Of a stretch of DNA of 64,000 nucleotides, positions 4,024-9,253 are shown piece by piece. The stretch's first letter is position 1. Each line of letters begins with the position of its first letter. The notes beneath the pieces were generated by a model. That model was not told where the DNA came from and did not search any database. It saw only the letters and a list, made by a program, of their open reading frames with translations. The position numbers were made by a program, and so were the translations under genes. This DNA is from Sulfitobacter maritimus (GTDB taxonomy: Bacteria; Pseudomonadota; Alphaproteobacteria; Rhodobacterales; Rhodobacteraceae): contig NZ_JABVBB010000021.1 in NCBI RefSeq assembly GCF_013346665.1, positions 434,001 through 498,000 of the forward strand. The letters run 5' to 3'.

Positions 4024-4476
4024 TCAGCGATTGAGAATATCGCGCAGCCGGGCCTCTTCTTCTGCGTTAAGCGGCGCTTCTGTCGCCGCCTTGCCGCCTG
4101 CGCGACCTCGAAGATAGACCAGCCCAAGCCCACCAGCCAGCAAGAGCATCAGCGGCCCTGCCCCCCAAAGCAACCAGTTCGCCCCGGTGGCACGCGGATT
4201 GAGCAAGACATATTCGCCGTAGCGGCCAACGATGAAATCGACTGCCTCCTCATCACTGTCGCCCGCCACCAAACGTTCGCGAAGCAAAAGGCGCAGGTCA
4301 CGGGCAAGGCTCGCGTTGCTCTCATCAATGCTTTCGTTCCGGCAAACGAGGCAGCGCAGCCCTTGGCTCAACTCGCGTGCGCGGGCTTCCAAGGCAGGAT
4401 CGTCCAACACTTCGTCAGGCTGGACCGCCCAGAGGGGGCTGGCGAGTAGGGTCAGGATCAGCAGCAGTCGTTTCAT
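4024..4476 (-). CDS. ccmH: Cytochrome c-type biogenesis protein CcmH (apocytochrome thiol oxidoreductase subunit)
   Basis: 150 residues with an N-terminal signal peptide (MKRLLLILTLLASPLWA). The redox motif LRCLVCRNES carries Cys42 and Cys45, and a single C-terminal membrane segment (ANWLLWGAGPLMLLLAGGLGL) anchors the protein. CcmH keeps apocytochrome c haem-binding cysteines reduced in the periplasm and works with CcmF in haem ligation. Its ATG overlaps the ccmF stop by four bases (ATGA), so the two are translationally coupled. The length matches the short, CcmL/CycL-type CcmH without the TPR domain. Confidence 0.95.
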   Translation of the reverse strand: MKRLLLILTLLASPLWAVQPDEVLDDPALEARARELSQGLRCLVCRNESIDESNASLARDLRLLLRERLVAGDSDEEAVDFIVGRYGEYVLLNPRATGANWLLWGAGPLMLLLAGGLGLVYLRGRAGGKAATEAPLNAEEEARLRDILNR

Positions 4477-6437
4477 TCCGCAGGCACCCCTTCGGGCTGT
4501 TTGCGCGCCCCTGCGGCCACCCGAAAGCGCCGGTCACTAAGGCTCAGCAGTCCCCCAAGGGCCATTAAGGCGCAGCCGATCCAGATCCAGTTCGTCATCG
4601 GCTTGATGTAGGTCCGCACGGCCCAACCGCCGCCATCCTGCGCGTCGCCGATAACCACATAGACGTCCCGCGCGAGGTTGTAGTCGATCGCCGCCTCAGT
4701 GGTGGGCATCTGCGCCACCGGGTAGAAACGTTTCTCGGGTCGCAGGGTCGCGATTTTCGCGCCGTCTTGTGCCAAAGTCAGTTCTGCGATGGTGGTGAGG
4801 TAGTTTGGACCGCGCTCTTCACGCACTTCGTTCAGCGTGAGCGTGTAGCTGCCGACGTCAAATGGTGTGTCGATCTGCGCCACGCGGATGTCGTCCACCG
4901 CCCAAGCCATCAGCCCCGCGATCCCCGCCATGGTCACACCAAGGCCGCCATGCGCTGTGGCTTTGCCCCAATCCGCACGCGGAAGACGCCGCAACCGGCG
5001 CAGCTTGCCCGGCCCGCGGCCCAACCGCTGCATCAGGTCAACAACCGTGCCCATGACCAGCCAGGCGCCAAGGAACATACCGATTGGCCCCAAAAGCCCA
5101 CGCCCGCTCTGCATGGCAAAGGCCAGCCCACCGAGCGCCAGCGCAAGAACGAAGGCATAGCGCAGCGGATAAAGGGCGCGCATGATCTTGGCCCGTTTCC
5201 ACGGCATCGCACTGCCAATCGGCAGGATCAGCCCGAGCGCTACCATGAAAGGAGTAAACGCAGCGTTAAAGAAAGGCGGCCCCACGCTCAGCTTACGGTC
5301 AAGGAACATCTCAGCGACCAGTGGCCACATGGTGCCGACGAAGACCACAAAACAGGCCACCGCCAGCAGCAGGTTGTTCACCACCAGCGCGGTCTCACGG
5401 CTTAGCAGGCCAAAGACGCCCTTGGCCTCCAACACGCTGGCGCGCATCGAATAAAGCACCAAAGCGCCACCTGTGAAAAAACCAAGGATCGCGAGGATAA
5501 AGACCCCACGCTCAGGGTCATTGGCAAAGGCGTGAACCGAGGTCAGCAGGCCCGAGCGCACGATAAACGTCCCGATCAGCGAAAAGCCAAACGCCAAGAT
5601 CGCAAGAAGGATCGTCCAGCTTTTCAAACTCTCGCGTTTCTCGACCACAATGGCCGAATGCAGCAGCGCGGCGGCCAAGAGCCACGGCATGAAGGAGGCA
5701 TTCTCGACCGGGTCCCAGAACCAGAACCCACCCCAGCCCAGCTCGTAATAGGCCCACCACGAGCCAAGCGCGATGCCGATGGTCAAAAACACCCAAGCCG
5801 CCAGTGTCCAAGGCCGAACCCAACGGCCCCACGCCGCGTCCACACGGCCTTCGATCAACGCTGCGACGGCGAAACTAAACGACATGCTCAGGCCGACATA
5901 GCCGAGGTAAAGAAAGGGAGGGTGGAAGGCCAAACCGGGGTCTTGCAACAGCGGGTTCAGGTCTTGCCCGTCAAAAGGCGGCGTGCCCATGCGCAAAAAC
6001 GGGTTGGAGGTAAAAAGGATGAACGCCAAAAACGCCACCCCAATCGCCGCCTGAACCGAGAGCACCCGCGCCCGCAAACGCGGCGGCAAATTGCCGCCGA
6101 ACCAAGCGGCCATAGCACCAAACAGTGCCACGATCAGTACCCAAAGCAGCATGGATCCTTCGTGGTTGCCCCATGTGCCGCTGATTTTATAGAGCATCGG
6201 CTTGGCCGAGTGACTATTGGCCACCACCAGACGCAAGCTGAAATCCGAGGTGATAAAGGCCCACATCAGCGCGCCAAAGCTCAGCGCGATCAGGGCAAAC
6301 TGTGCGCCTGCCGCAGGCTCGGCCACCGCCATCCAACTCGCACGGCCGCGCCATGCGCCCCACATCGGCACCACCATCTGTACCAAGGCCACGCCAAAAG
6401 CGAGCACCAGCGCGAAATGTCCAAGTTCTGTAATCAT
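4473..6437 (-). CDS. ccmF: Haem lyase CcmF/NrfE family, cytochrome c maturation
   Basis: About 654 residues with many membrane helices. The tryptophan-rich WWD region reads GSWWAYYELGWGGFWFWDP, the hallmark haem-handling site of CcmF. It takes haem from holo-CcmE and ligates it to apocytochrome c together with CcmH. Start 6437 (MITELGHFAL) matches the family N-terminus; the upstream ATG at 6479 would add a non-conserved arginine-rich stretch. No strong ribosome binding site precedes it. In most bacteria ccmE directly precedes ccmF; here two lysis genes (6498-7690) lie between them. Confidence 0.96.
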   Translation of the reverse strand: MITELGHFALVLAFGVALVQMVVPMWGAWRGRASWMAVAEPAAGAQFALIALSFGALMWAFITSDFSLRLVVANSHSAKPMLYKISGTWGNHEGSMLLWVLIVALFGAMAAWFGGNLPPRLRARVLSVQAAIGVAFLAFILFTSNPFLRMGTPPFDGQDLNPLLQDPGLAFHPPFLYLGYVGLSMSFSFAVAALIEGRVDAAWGRWVRPWTLAAWVFLTIGIALGSWWAYYELGWGGFWFWDPVENASFMPWLLAAALLHSAIVVEKRESLKSWTILLAILAFGFSLIGTFIVRSGLLTSVHAFANDPERGVFILAILGFFTGGALVLYSMRASVLEAKGVFGLLSRETALVVNNLLLAVACFVVFVGTMWPLVAEMFLDRKLSVGPPFFNAAFTPFMVALGLILPIGSAMPWKRAKIMRALYPLRYAFVLALALGGLAFAMQSGRGLLGPIGMFLGAWLVMGTVVDLMQRLGRGPGKLRRLRRLPRADWGKATAHGGLGVTMAGIAGLMAWAVDDIRVAQIDTPFDVGSYTLTLNEVREERGPNYLTTIAELTLAQDGAKIATLRPEKRFYPVAQMPTTEAAIDYNLARDVYVVIGDAQDGGGWAVRTYIKPMTNWIWIGCALMALGGLLSLSDRRFRVAAGARKQPEGVPAE

Positions 6438-6497
6438 GGGCCGAACTATAGGGGGCCAGCGCCCCCTAAGCCATGCCAAATTACGCGGGGAAGATGG

Positions 6498-7088
6498 TCA
6501 ATCGGTCGCAGCTAACGCCCGGCTGCGACGCCATGCATCGAGTGCCGGATTGTCGGAGGGCTCCAATGCGGCAAGGGTCAGACGGCTGTCTTTTCCAGTG
6601 TTCGCGACCTGCGGGGTATCGGTCCTCAGCGTCCGCAGCGCTTCGATATTGTTGACCACCTGCGGCACCCGCGTGATCGTCCCGACGATGGCTTGCTGAA
6701 ACGCCTGTGCCTTGGCCTGTTGCCGGGCACCAAAGTAGAAGGAAACGATCACGCCCAAGAGCCACCAGAGCGGCTCTGGCACCAAGGCGATGCCCTGCAT
6801 ACGCTCGGCAAACCACAGTGGATTGATCATCGCCGTCACAAACAGCCCCAAGGTGCCAAGCGCCAACATCGGGCGCGGCAGGCGGTTAACCCCATCCATA
6901 AAGCGGTCAAATCCACCTTGCCGCGCCACGGCGAACTCCGCCCCATATTGCGCCATGGCTTGACCCTGAACAGTATGCGCACGCTCTGCGCTCGCTTCGG
7001 CGTTTTCGCGGAACACTTCGACGGTGTCGCGCACAATGTTACGCTCGCCGCCGAAAACCATTGTAAAGATACGTTCGATCAACCCCAT
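6498..7088 (-). CDS. Gene-transfer-agent-type three-helix holin
   Basis: 196 residues. The first two thirds include amphipathic segments (MGLIERIFTMVFGGERN) and membrane stretches PMLALGTLGLFVTAMINPLW and EPLWWLLGVIVSFYFGA, matching what I remember of the 3TM holin family used for gene-transfer-agent release in Rhodobacterales. The C-terminal tail is polar. Start 7088 has GAGGG eight bases upstream. It overlaps the 3' end of the endolysin gene by ten bases, so they are co-translated. Expected role: permeabilising the inner membrane so the muramidase reaches peptidoglycan. No phage structural genes are nearby. An uncharacterised membrane protein is the alternative. Confidence 0.8.
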   Translation of the reverse strand: MGLIERIFTMVFGGERNIVRDTVEVFRENAEASAERAHTVQGQAMAQYGAEFAVARQGGFDRFMDGVNRLPRPMLALGTLGLFVTAMINPLWFAERMQGIALVPEPLWWLLGVIVSFYFGARQQAKAQAFQQAIVGTITRVPQVVNNIEALRTLRTDTPQVANTGKDSRLTLAALEPSDNPALDAWRRSRALAATD

Positions 7089-7690
7089 GCTGCCACCCTC
7101 TGCACGAATGCCGCCGGTGTCATATGATATTGCGGTGCGATAAACTCTTCGGCCCGACGGATCCAACCACCTTTGCCCCCCGCCTGATTGCGCGCATATT
7201 TGCGGCTTGCGGGGCGGCGGTCGGCCAGACGGAAATAGTAATTGCGCCGGGCAATACCGTAGGCATCGACCAGATGATCTGGCGCGGCACGCAGCGCCCC
7301 ATGCGCGGCGCGTATGGTCTGGGGGCCAATAGCGCCGTCGACAGCGATATCGTGACCCATTTCTCGTAGCAGCTGTTGCAGGATCTTAACGGCGTTGCTC
7401 CCGGCGTTCACATACATATCAAAGACGCTCGCCTGAAGCGGCTCAGGCAGTTCCGCGATCAGCGGTGCGTCAAAGTAATGTTTGATAAAAATATCCACCG
7501 CCTGGGCTTGGCTCAGGCTGCGCACGTCCGAGAGATCGACCTGCCCATCTCCGGTCAGGTCCAGCCCCAGCCGCCGCATTGTGTGAATGGTGACACCAAA
7601 ATTCGTCGCCCCGCCCGGATCGTCCGGGTCATTCACAAACCCGCCCTCGCGGGCGACAATTGCTTGGGCGATCTCTTTGACTGACTGCAT
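7079..7690 (-). CDS. Holin-associated N-acetylmuramidase (GH108 endolysin, gene-transfer-agent type)
   Basis: 203 residues. The glycosyl hydrolase 108 signature is present near the N-terminus: catalytic Glu15 in REGGF, then NDPDDPGGATNFGVT. Residues 44-55 (DLTGDGQVDLSD) form an EF-hand-like calcium loop, and a peptidoglycan-binding-like C-terminal half follows (AVDGAIGPQT). It should cleave murein glycan strands. Start 7690 has a very strong site AGGAGGG; a 5' extension to 7741 would lack this. The mRNA hairpin at 7700-7720 pairs part of that site. Partner of the overlapping holin gene. In Rhodobacter capsulatus such a pair lyses cells to release the gene transfer agent and lies away from the capsid genes. 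Confidence 0.88.
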   Translation of the reverse strand: MQSVKEIAQAIVAREGGFVNDPDDPGGATNFGVTIHTMRRLGLDLTGDGQVDLSDVRSLSQAQAVDIFIKHYFDAPLIAELPEPLQASVFDMYVNAGSNAVKILQQLLREMGHDIAVDGAIGPQTIRAAHGALRAAPDHLVDAYGIARRNYYFRLADRRPASRKYARNQAGGKGGWIRRAEEFIAPQYHMTPAAFVQRVAAWG

Positions 7691-7699
7691 CTCTGCCCT

Positions 7700-7763
7700 C
7701 CTGTTCTGCGCTAGAACAGGCTGAAGAGGAACGGTTAACACACCGTCTGCGCAACGTGCGCAG
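7700..7763 (-). promoter_or_regulatory. Stacked hairpins between ccmE and the endolysin; one covers part of its ribosome binding site
   Basis: Three inverted repeats lie side by side. The first, 7747-7763, is CTGCGCA-ACG-TGCGCAG. The second, 7731-7746, is ACGGT-TAACAC-ACCGT. The third, 7700-7720, has perfect 8-bp arms CCTGTTCT and AGAACAGG. On the mRNA the 3' arm of the last hairpin ends with the first AGG of the AGGAGGG ribosome binding site. This suggests partial occlusion of endolysin translation or separation from ccmE transcription. There is no T run, so it is not a classic terminator. Confidence 0.5.
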
Positions 7764-7773
7764 CAGAGCTAGA

Positions 7774-8217
7774 TCAGCTATCGCCCTCGCGGTAGACACC
7801 CTGCGCCTTCAGCGCATCCGTCACCTCTTTGGGCATGTAGGTTTCATCGTGTTTGGCAAGGATTTCAGAGGCTACAAAGACGCCGCTCACATAGCGCCCG
7901 GTCCCGACCATCCCTTGGTTTTCCTCAAAAAGATCCGGCAGCACGCCAGTAAATACGACCGGCACAGACGCGCCGCCATCGGTGACAGAAAAGCGGATCG
8001 ACTCACCCTGCCCGCGTTTGAGCGAGCCTTCTTCGACCAGTCCCCCGATGCGGAACACCTCTGTCGGTCCGGGTGGCTCTGCGATGACTTGGCTCGGCGC
8101 ACGGAAATAGTTGATACCGTCCCGTAACGCATAGCCGATCAGCGCGGTCGACAGCACCAGTGCAACGGCTGCCACTGCGATGATCTGGATGCGACGTTGT
8201 TTCTTAAGGCTTTTCAT
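7774..8217 (-). CDS. ccmE: Cytochrome c maturation haem chaperone CcmE
   Basis: 147 residues. A short cytoplasmic N-terminus (MKSLKKQRRI) is followed by one membrane helix (about 10-31) and a periplasmic OB-fold domain. The covalent haem ligand His123 sits in LAKHDETYMP, with Tyr127 as axial ligand. CcmE receives haem from the CcmABCD system and hands it to CcmF. Those genes are not in the window. The gene starts seven bases after the argC stop, so it belongs to the murI-argC transcription direction. The C-terminus after residue 130 is short and polar, as usual. Confidence 0.96.
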   Translation of the reverse strand: MKSLKKQRRIQIIAVAAVALVLSTALIGYALRDGINYFRAPSQVIAEPPGPTEVFRIGGLVEEGSLKRGQGESIRFSVTDGGASVPVVFTGVLPDLFEENQGMVGTGRYVSGVFVASEILAKHDETYMPKEVTDALKAQGVYREGDS

Positions 8218-8224
8218 AACGCCC

Positions 8225-9253
8225 TCATGGGAAGAGCGGAGCCATCATTAGCCCCTCGGTTTCATCCAACCCCAGCATCAGATTGGCGTTCTGCAACGCC
8301 TGCCCGCTGGAGCCTTTGGTCAGATTGTCGAGCGCCGCGACCACGGTGGCGCGGCCGGCCTGACGGTCCGCCACGACGCCGATATGGCAAAAGTTCGAGC
8401 CGCGCACATGCCGCGTGCTGGGGGCTTCGCCCAAGGGGAGCACTTTGATAAAGGGTTCTTCGGCATATGCGGTTTTCAGAGTGTCATGAATGGCTTGCGC
8501 GTCACCCTTAACGTAACAGGTCGCCAGAATACCCCGGTTTGCTGGCACAAGATGCGGGGTGAATTGCACCTGAACGGGCCGACCCGCAATGGCGGAGAAC
8601 TCCTGATCGAACTCGCCTAAATGCCGGTGCGTGCTGCCGAGCGCATAGGCATGATACCCCTCGCTCAGCTCCGCATGCAGCAAGTTTTCTTTCAGCGAGC
8701 GCCCCGCCCCGGATACCGCGCATTTCAGGTCTAGTATGATGTCATCAAGATCAATCACGCCTGCAGCGATCAGCGGGCGCAGAGCAAATTGCCCGGTGGC
8801 TGCATTGCACCCGGTGCCCGCCACCAACCGCGCGGCGGCGATTTCTTTGCGGTAGAACTCGGTCAGACCGTAGACCGCCTCTTTCTGCTGCTCGACCGCG
8901 GCATGGGCGTTGCCGTACCATTTTTCATAAGCCTCAGGGTCGCGCAGGCGGAAGTCGGCGGAGAGGTCAACGATCTTCAGGTCCTTCGGCAGCGCCGAGA
9001 TCACCTCCTGCGACGTCTTATGCGGTAGAGCACAGAAGCACAGGTCAATCTGCGAAAAATCGATCTCGTCGATCGTGACCAACGCAGGCAGGTCAAGATG
9101 CCGCAAATGTGGGAAAACGTCAGCCATGCGTTGACCCGCCTTGGAGTTCGCGCCCAAAGCGGCAATGCGCATTGACGAATGACCAGCAACAAGCCGGATA
9201 AGCTCTGCCCCGGTATAGCCGGAAGCGCCAAGGATTGCGATGTTCTGGGTCAT
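8225..9253 (-). CDS. argC: N-acetyl-gamma-glutamyl-phosphate reductase
   Basis: 342 residues, type 1 ArgC. The NADPH-binding start reads [15 protein letters not shown] and the active-site Cys149 lies in [12 protein letters not shown]. It reduces N-acetylglutamyl phosphate to the semialdehyde in arginine biosynthesis. The ribosome binding site GAGGGG precedes ATG 9253. No other arg gene is in the window. The gene sits 36 bases downstream of murI and directly upstream of ccmE on the same strand. Confidence 0.96.

Follow-up and report, generated by a model that had tools for sequence, protein, structure and literature searches.

The locus raises the question of how a bacterium keeps a wall-degrading lysis enzyme silent when its gene lies directly downstream of a housekeeping gene on the same strand. 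The window (64,000 nucleotides of Sulfitobacter maritimus, assembly GCF_013346665.1, contig NZ_JABVBB010000021.1, positions 434,001 to 498,000; C14:434001-498000 of the 3.79-Mb assembly) carries on its minus strand, in the order of reading, argC, ccmE, an endolysin gene, a holin gene, ccmF and ccmH. About 70 bases of endolysin leader contain three elements: the motif CGnRCG, TTAACC as a half-site of CtrA type, and a predicted hairpin that overlaps the Shine-Dalgarno sequence. The features are:

8225..9253, minus strand: argC, conserved flank (profile match, order in relatives)
7774..8217, minus strand: ccmE, upstream neighbour (profile match); its stop lies 83 bases upstream of the endolysin
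7753..7760, minus strand: CGCACGTT, CGnRCG instance, possible GafA site, 22 bases upstream of TTAACC
7733..7738, minus strand: TTAACC, CtrA-type half-site, 48 bases before the endolysin ATG
7691..7728, minus strand: predicted RNA hairpin of the endolysin leader, inner stem CCUGUUCU/AGAACAGG (7720-7700) (folding, arm co-variation)
7697..7702, minus strand: Shine-Dalgarno AGGAGG, partly within the hairpin stems (sequence, folding)
7079..7690, minus strand: endolysin (GH108 + PG_binding_3), holin-associated N-acetylmuramidase (family profiles, hydropathy scan)
6498..7088, minus strand: GTA-type holin (PF11351), overlapping the endolysin by ten bases (Pfam profile, hydropathy scan)
6445..6450, minus strand: TATAGT, resembling a -10 element, its end 7 bases ahead of the ccmF ATG
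4473..6437, minus strand: ccmF, downstream neighbour (profile match)
4024..4476, minus strand: ccmH, conserved flank (profile match, order in relatives)

Protein families: the first-pass annotation had read the pair as a GH108 endolysin with an REGGF motif and a three-helix holin of gene-transfer-agent (GTA) type, and had named placement of either protein outside these families as grounds for refutation; both were found inside. The endolysin frame (ATG 7690, stop 7079, 203 aa) contains REGGF and was matched by PF05838 (Glyco_hydro_108; 89 bits), PF09374 (PG_binding_3; 86.5 bits) and the NCBIfam equivalog NF040573 'holin-associated N-acetylmuramidase' (359.1 bits, cut-off 240), the scores being taken on a slightly longer open frame (7079-7741); the hydropathy scan gave no 19-residue window above 1.3. 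The holin frame (ATG 7088, stop 6498, 196 aa) was matched by PF11351, GTA_holin_3TM (103.8 bits, cut-off 24.8); no match was obtained in PHROGs or NCBIfam at E 0.01, and the 19-residue scan (threshold 1.3) indicated two hydrophobic stretches, not three. The two frames share bases 7079-7088, as had been claimed, and the same ten-base overlap was present in 70 of 74 loci in which the pair is sandwiched between ccmE and ccmF. The pair thus belongs to an established family, that of the RcGTA lysis genes.

GTA cluster of the genome: one RcGTA-type capsid/terminase cluster was found, about 84–97 kb from the lysis pair, with terminase, portal, protease and capsid genes recognisable in order and a g15 protein matching GTA_TIM, Phage-tail_3 and Rcc01698_C. 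The sole GTA_TIM match of the genome (C14:526114-527007, 508 bits) and the sole Phage_capsid match (C14:533473-534318, 297 bits; ~92 kb from the pair) lie ~84–93 kb from the lysis genes on the same contig. No structural genes were found beside the pair, whose neighbours are argC, ccmE, ccmF and ccmH, and the earlier statement to that effect holds; with both proteins above curated family cut-offs and an RcGTA-type cluster in the same genome, so does the assignment to GTA type. A DUF6456 protein, which we take to be the likely gafA product, is encoded at C14:64561-64974, and TTAAC-N6-GTAAC sits 37 bases upstream of its open frame. The same form of CtrA site is given for the R. capsulatus gafA promoter in the accessible part of PMC6363796. 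The data support an inherited GTA lysis locus, known in kind: in Rhodobacter capsulatus the endolysin and holin (rcc00555/rcc00556) are likewise distant from the structural cluster (PMC6854486, accessible text), as the first-pass annotation had stated.

Gene order in relatives: two panels were used. The named panel consisted of the best 80 of 414 endolysin relatives (scan of genome contigs); ccmE and ccmF both flank the pair in 74 of them, ccmE only in 4 (one at a contig end) and neither ccm gene in 2. The family panel comprised 149 genomes from 148 genera of the family (Rhodobacteraceae, judged from named relatives), 125 of which gave an NF040573 match above cut-off; 130 of the 132 above-cut-off copies were taken (G045 and G144 left out). 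Both neighbours were present at 74 of the 130, ccmE only at 32, ccmF only at 12 and neither at 12 (judged within 1.5–1.8 kb each side, less at contig ends), so that ccmE or ccmF adjoins the pair in 118 copies. Of 190 genomes sampled across the class, 4 passed the NF040573 cut-off and 33 more gave weaker matches; three of the four are Rhodobacteraceae, including the Sulfitobacter maritimus genome itself and a congener. The position between ccmE and ccmF had been described correctly; the accompanying remark that ccmE and ccmF are usually adjacent had not, since in Rhodobacteraceae the lysis pair normally intervenes. Judged by gene order, the ccm-embedded arrangement is old and characteristic of the family, and the shared order bears out inheritance rather than a prophage. 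Seven genomes have a second above-cut-off endolysin copy (L170, L204, L214, L219, L223, L228, L259), with no ccmE or ccmF within the stretch fetched.

Promoter-type motifs: in leaders aligned on TTAACC (80 named loci and the window) the exact hexamer was present in 57 of 81 and TTAA in 75; among ccmE-linked leaders of the family panel it was exact in 62 of 106. At -72 to -35 exact TTAACC occurred in 56/80 endolysin leaders vs 0/445 control leaders (argC, ccmE, holin, ccmF, ccmH and hydratase at the same loci; for the hydratase a later ATG was chosen by us as start). CGnRCG stands 22 bases before TTAACC in 70 of 81 half-site leaders of the family panel (43 with A as fourth base) and in 51 of 73 of the named panel, and in many relatives it overlaps or closely trails the ccmE stop. 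Conservation extends to the 3' side of TTAACC, with a C-A step at +15/+16 and T at +20. According to the accessible parts of the R. capsulatus papers, the lysis promoter is bound by GafA and endolysin expression depends on CtrA (PMC6363796), that promoter has putative CtrA half-sites (PMC9638019), and a printed EMSA primer for rcc00555 includes the complement of GTTAACC; the present leader has, at the level of the DNA, a matching half-site and, in CGnRCG, a possible GafA site. By analogy with R. capsulatus, activation of this lysis promoter by CtrA and GafA may be expected.

A sigma-70 promoter for the pair was sought and rejected: none was found on its strand, and no recognisable sigma-70 -10 is present in the lysis leader. 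No intrinsic terminator was listed in 7691-7773 between ccmE and the endolysin; the two terminator-like sites listed inside ccmE are about the number expected by chance. In some relatives with longer ccmE-endolysin gaps terminator-like repeats were seen by eye.

Genome-wide search with CGNACGST-N14-TTAAC (≤1 mismatch) gave 27 matches vs 36 for the reversed control, and the count is therefore not informative. Two matches were exact, one in a lysS-tailspike gap and one beside no recognised GTA gene; the window's own composite site carries one mismatch. The former (L262:2048-2074; CGCACGGT-N14-TTAAC) has a class I lysyl-tRNA synthetase gene on one side and a 762-aa pectate-lyase-like gene on the other, an order known from the accessible literature as that of tspA in Rhodobacterales. 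It stands ~97–123 bases before the start, whereas GafA binding to the R. capsulatus tspA promoter is placed 50–100 bases before the start in the available text of PMC13420450. A CGCACGGT-like sequence was also seen by eye between the TTGACT and TAGAA-like elements of the structural promoter in this genus.

Leader hairpin: the 48 bases before the window's endolysin ATG folded at -16.3 kcal/mol (z -2.4; 4/200 shuffles as good), with an inner stem of eight pairs ending in the Shine-Dalgarno sequence and an outer stem extending to the base preceding the ATG. Among the named loci the 45-base endolysin leader was better than its dinucleotide shuffles (p ≤ 0.05) in 54 of 80 (mean z -2.68); control leaders at the same threshold: argC 3/76, ccmE 3/78, holin 4/79, ccmF 11/74, ccmH 4/69, hydratase 6/69, the mean z of these six genes lying between -0.53 and +0.29. 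For the family panel one leader was dropped as lacking a start codon (L167), which left 129, of which 106 had ccmE upstream; after exclusion of one leader with N from the folding tests, 55 of 105 ccmE-linked leaders passed p ≤ 0.05 (mean z -1.94). The hairpin is hence not universal among relatives. Rfam gave no match over the endolysin leader at E up to 1.

Arm co-variation: as arm and loop lengths vary, the arms were exchanged between genera (10,000 permutations; the statistics ignore relatedness among genera). For 80 half-site leaders of the family panel, chosen from the 106 by a TTAA-type site at -62 to -44 and absence of N and not by folding, the native combinations averaged -17.26 vs -11.16 kcal/mol permuted (sd 0.31); 0/10,000 permutations were as low, the lowest being -12.33 kcal/mol. 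With all 105 ccmE-linked leaders the values were -16.11 vs -11.10 kcal/mol (z -18.9, 0/10,000), and with 69 leaders of the named loci z was -16.9. Controls: argC, ccmE, holin, ccmH and hydratase at the named loci, z between -1.3 and +2.1; flanking segments, z -2.1 for the bases upstream of TTAACC and -2.5 for the ORF start. Taken singly, 44 of the 80 leaders ranked ≤0.05 with a foreign 5' arm and 31 with a foreign 3' arm; 4 ranked >0.3 in both directions. RNAalifold on seven Aliiroseovarius leaders (one aligned group) returned the helix, compensatory pairs being absent and the covariation term unfavourable; MAFFT placed no internal gaps in 46 leaders of similar length, hence no usable column pairing was obtained from it. 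That the structure of the leader is conserved can be stated with high confidence.

Shine-Dalgarno access: in the 80 leaders the predicted unpaired fraction of the Shine-Dalgarno sequence was 0.24 with the 5' arm vs 0.52 without it, and predicted access rose on omission of the arm in 82.5% of them. At the same loci predicted access was 0.20 for the endolysin vs 0.34–0.52 for five other genes (argC, ccmE, holin, ccmH, hydratase; the holin anchored 3 and the hydratase possibly 33 bases upstream of the likely start). Hairpins were somewhat stronger where ccmE was nearer (Spearman 0.27, p 0.006), the comparison of ccmE gaps <95 with longer ones gave p 0.066, and ccmE-linked copies had stronger hairpins than unlinked ones at p 0.062; L205, with an impossible ccmE gap, was omitted from the gap tests. 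These trends, weak as they are, run in the direction expected of a guard against read-through from ccmE.

The following reading is built on the computed protein families, gene order, motif spacing, hairpin with co-variation and lowered predicted Shine-Dalgarno access. The pair would be the lysis cassette of the genome's GTA, established among the cytochrome c maturation genes of Rhodobacteraceae and provided at the ccmE end with a putative promoter region of its own (CGnRCG motif and CtrA-type half-site). Between promoter and start codon the transcript is predicted to fold such that the 3' arm of the hairpin covers the endolysin Shine-Dalgarno sequence. RNA reading through from argC-ccmE would include the hairpin in full and give little translation; no endolysin should therefore come from housekeeping transcription. 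A dedicated GTA promoter combined with a translational lock against ccmE read-through, after the manner of T4 gene e, is the reading that we favour and regard as probable by a modest measure; the guarding role of the hairpin is judged likely to the same limited extent. The first-pass annotation had reasoned that reading from ccmE into a lysis gene would be dangerous and that independent control is to be expected; as far as the DNA tells, with TTAACC confined to the endolysin among the leaders compared and a co-varying hairpin over the ribosome binding site, this expectation was borne out.

In GTA-producing cells the lock would have to open. Most simply, the activated promoter would start within the hairpin and its message would omit the 5' arm; alternatively transcript abundance or a trans factor might unlock it. 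In T4, according to the available text of PMC3014915, long early transcripts of gene e fold over the lysozyme start, transcripts from the adjacent late promoters lack the 5' arm, and the structure cuts lysozyme synthesis about 100-fold. Shared with that system are the lysis enzyme, the Shine-Dalgarno sequence in a predicted stem and promoter motifs close by on the upstream side. For T4 the absence of the 5' arm from late transcripts rests on mapping (PMC3014915, accessible part), whereas here we infer the start position, the translation block and the opening of the lock; unlike in T4, transcripts reading through would originate in a housekeeping operon of the host, and co-variation of the arms extends across a bacterial family. 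Release of the T4 kind, in which an open message would come solely from a CtrA/GafA-activated promoter with its start inside the hairpin, is proposed tentatively and is rather more doubtful than the lock itself. As the lysis leader has no recognisable -10, the start cannot be placed, and a start upstream of the hairpin would leave the dedicated transcript locked too.

That last case corresponds to a different function, in which the hairpin sits on every transcript, the dedicated one included, and delays lysis until particles have matured, unrelated to read-through; endolysin translation would remain low until the transcript is abundant or a factor opens the hairpin. The fixed spacing from TTAACC to the 5' arm agrees with such a timer or brake, the conserved C-A step at the hairpin foot could be the start site, and the 23 copies without upstream ccmE still average z -1.26. 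However, hairpins tend to be weaker in copies that lack ccmE (p 0.06), and the farther away ccmE lies, the weaker they are (p 0.006). We consider this explanation somewhat unlikely.

Tie to the GTA across genomes: by terminase only, 121 of the 149 family-panel genomes have both terminase and lysis genes, 4 lysis genes only, 15 terminase only and 9 neither (Fisher p 8e-6). GTA status was then defined as kept (full terminase match; capsid checked in 36 genomes, excluding the 9 without terminase and endolysin) or lost (30/149, assembled by hand, collapsed clusters being counted as lost). Among GTA-kept genomes 107 of 119 retain the pair, among GTA-lost ones 18 of 30 (Fisher p 0.0003). The link is real, not absolute, and the 18 retaining genomes count against strict dependence of the pair on the GTA. 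They favour instead a host-owned module of programmed lysis with uses beyond GTA release and a partly historical GTA link, an idea compatible with the lock. The half-site in 76% of 17 ccmE-linked copies from GTA-lost genomes vs 81% in GTA-kept ones (p 0.74) and the second copies in seven genomes speak for it too; the higher retention where the GTA is kept speaks against it, as does the membership of the R. capsulatus lysis genes in the GTA co-expression module (PMC4158056, as far as its accessible text goes). On balance such a module is improbable. The GTA-lost ccmE-linked leaders (16 of 17 scorable) have, if anything, the stronger hairpin (mean z -2.94 vs -1.76, p 0.026), and their leader features fit recent loss of the GTA, further use of the pair or a need for silence.

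Collapsed clusters: the GTA terminase match ends early in 13 of 149 genomes, at residue 183–185 in 11 of the 13. In all nine loci fetched (L275–L283; genomes G099, G073, G169, G133, G121, G108, G166, G173, G014) the residues up to 184 are joined to the C-terminal half of the g15 'megatron'; the junction is identical and in frame, with a later frameshift in one of the nine. Inteins were considered as the cause of the shortened matches and rejected. The capsid is absent from 10 of the 13 genomes and represented in 3 by a distant homologue only (29–34%); 12 of the 13 keep the lysis pair. Because one case falls in the window's own genus, collapse at the same point looks recurrent. G007, of the same genus and 99% complete, gave no GTA terminase match.

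Inverted repeats commonly serve as operators, and the dyad adjoins promoter motifs; it might accordingly be read as the DNA operator of a dimeric regulator instead of an RNA structure. The arms, however, differ in sequence between genera yet still pair, the loop is not of constant length, and the Shine-Dalgarno sequence falls on the 3' arm; persistence of pairing while the sequence changes points to RNA rather than to a protein-binding dyad, and we regard an operator as very improbable. A remnant of a prophage inserted by chance between ccmE and ccmF is barely credible: similar endolysins are common in phages (574 phage records match) and an ancient prophage origin is plausible in view of Methylobacterium nodulans prophage segments in which an rcc00555 homologue adjoins an RcGTA-like head-tail cluster (PMC11409702, accessible part), but the matching phage records are all <60% identical (~33–37% among the matches listed), the gene order is common family-wide and the one capsid match lies elsewhere, so that recent insertion was rejected.

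Relation to known systems: the R. capsulatus literature, in the parts examined, treats transcriptional control of the lysis genes, and nothing was found in the literature searched (most subscription journals absent) on the ccm setting, on a hairpin in the leader or on control at the Shine-Dalgarno sequence; for rcc00555/rcc00556 neither a leader hairpin nor the ccmE/ccmF setting was found described there. New, then, is a leader with a conserved, co-varying hairpin as a putative lock on a GTA endolysin; the kind of control was already known. The LypABC system of the Caulobacter crescentus GTA likewise controls GTA release, and its authors found no holin-endolysin homologues there (PMC13236601, accessible text). 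As GTA release kills the producer, silencing in non-producers is central to GTA persistence. A conserved RNA lock, if true, would form a second layer of control, protecting non-producers at translation as well as at transcription, would account for lysis genes residing in a cytochrome maturation cluster and would offer a simple reporter for the producer switch; with release as in T4 it would be the bacterial, family-wide counterpart of the T4 lysozyme lock. Gene order and leader together serve as a sequence marker of GTA lysis loci across the family.

Leader of ccmF: TATA occurs at -18 to -4 in 51 of 86 ccmF leaders, in 50 of these 51 at -12 or -13, and is accompanied in relatives by a TTGGC-like -35; TATA within the last 18 bases was found in 1/129 endolysin leaders. 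In the window TTGG, the -35 of relatives, is not at the usual distance from TATAGT. The element suggests a separate, near-leaderless ccmF transcript; ccmF would then restart from its own promoter-like element and need not depend on read-through. The ccmF leader (6438-6482) has a strong predicted fold (-24.9 kcal/mol, z -2.6), and co-variation between its two halves is seen across genera, more weakly than in the endolysin leader (z -6.8 named loci, -4.7 family panel); one sub-threshold Rfam match was obtained at 6450-6474. The folded stretch overlaps with the promoter-like region of ccmF on the one hand and with the tail of the lysis transcript on the other.
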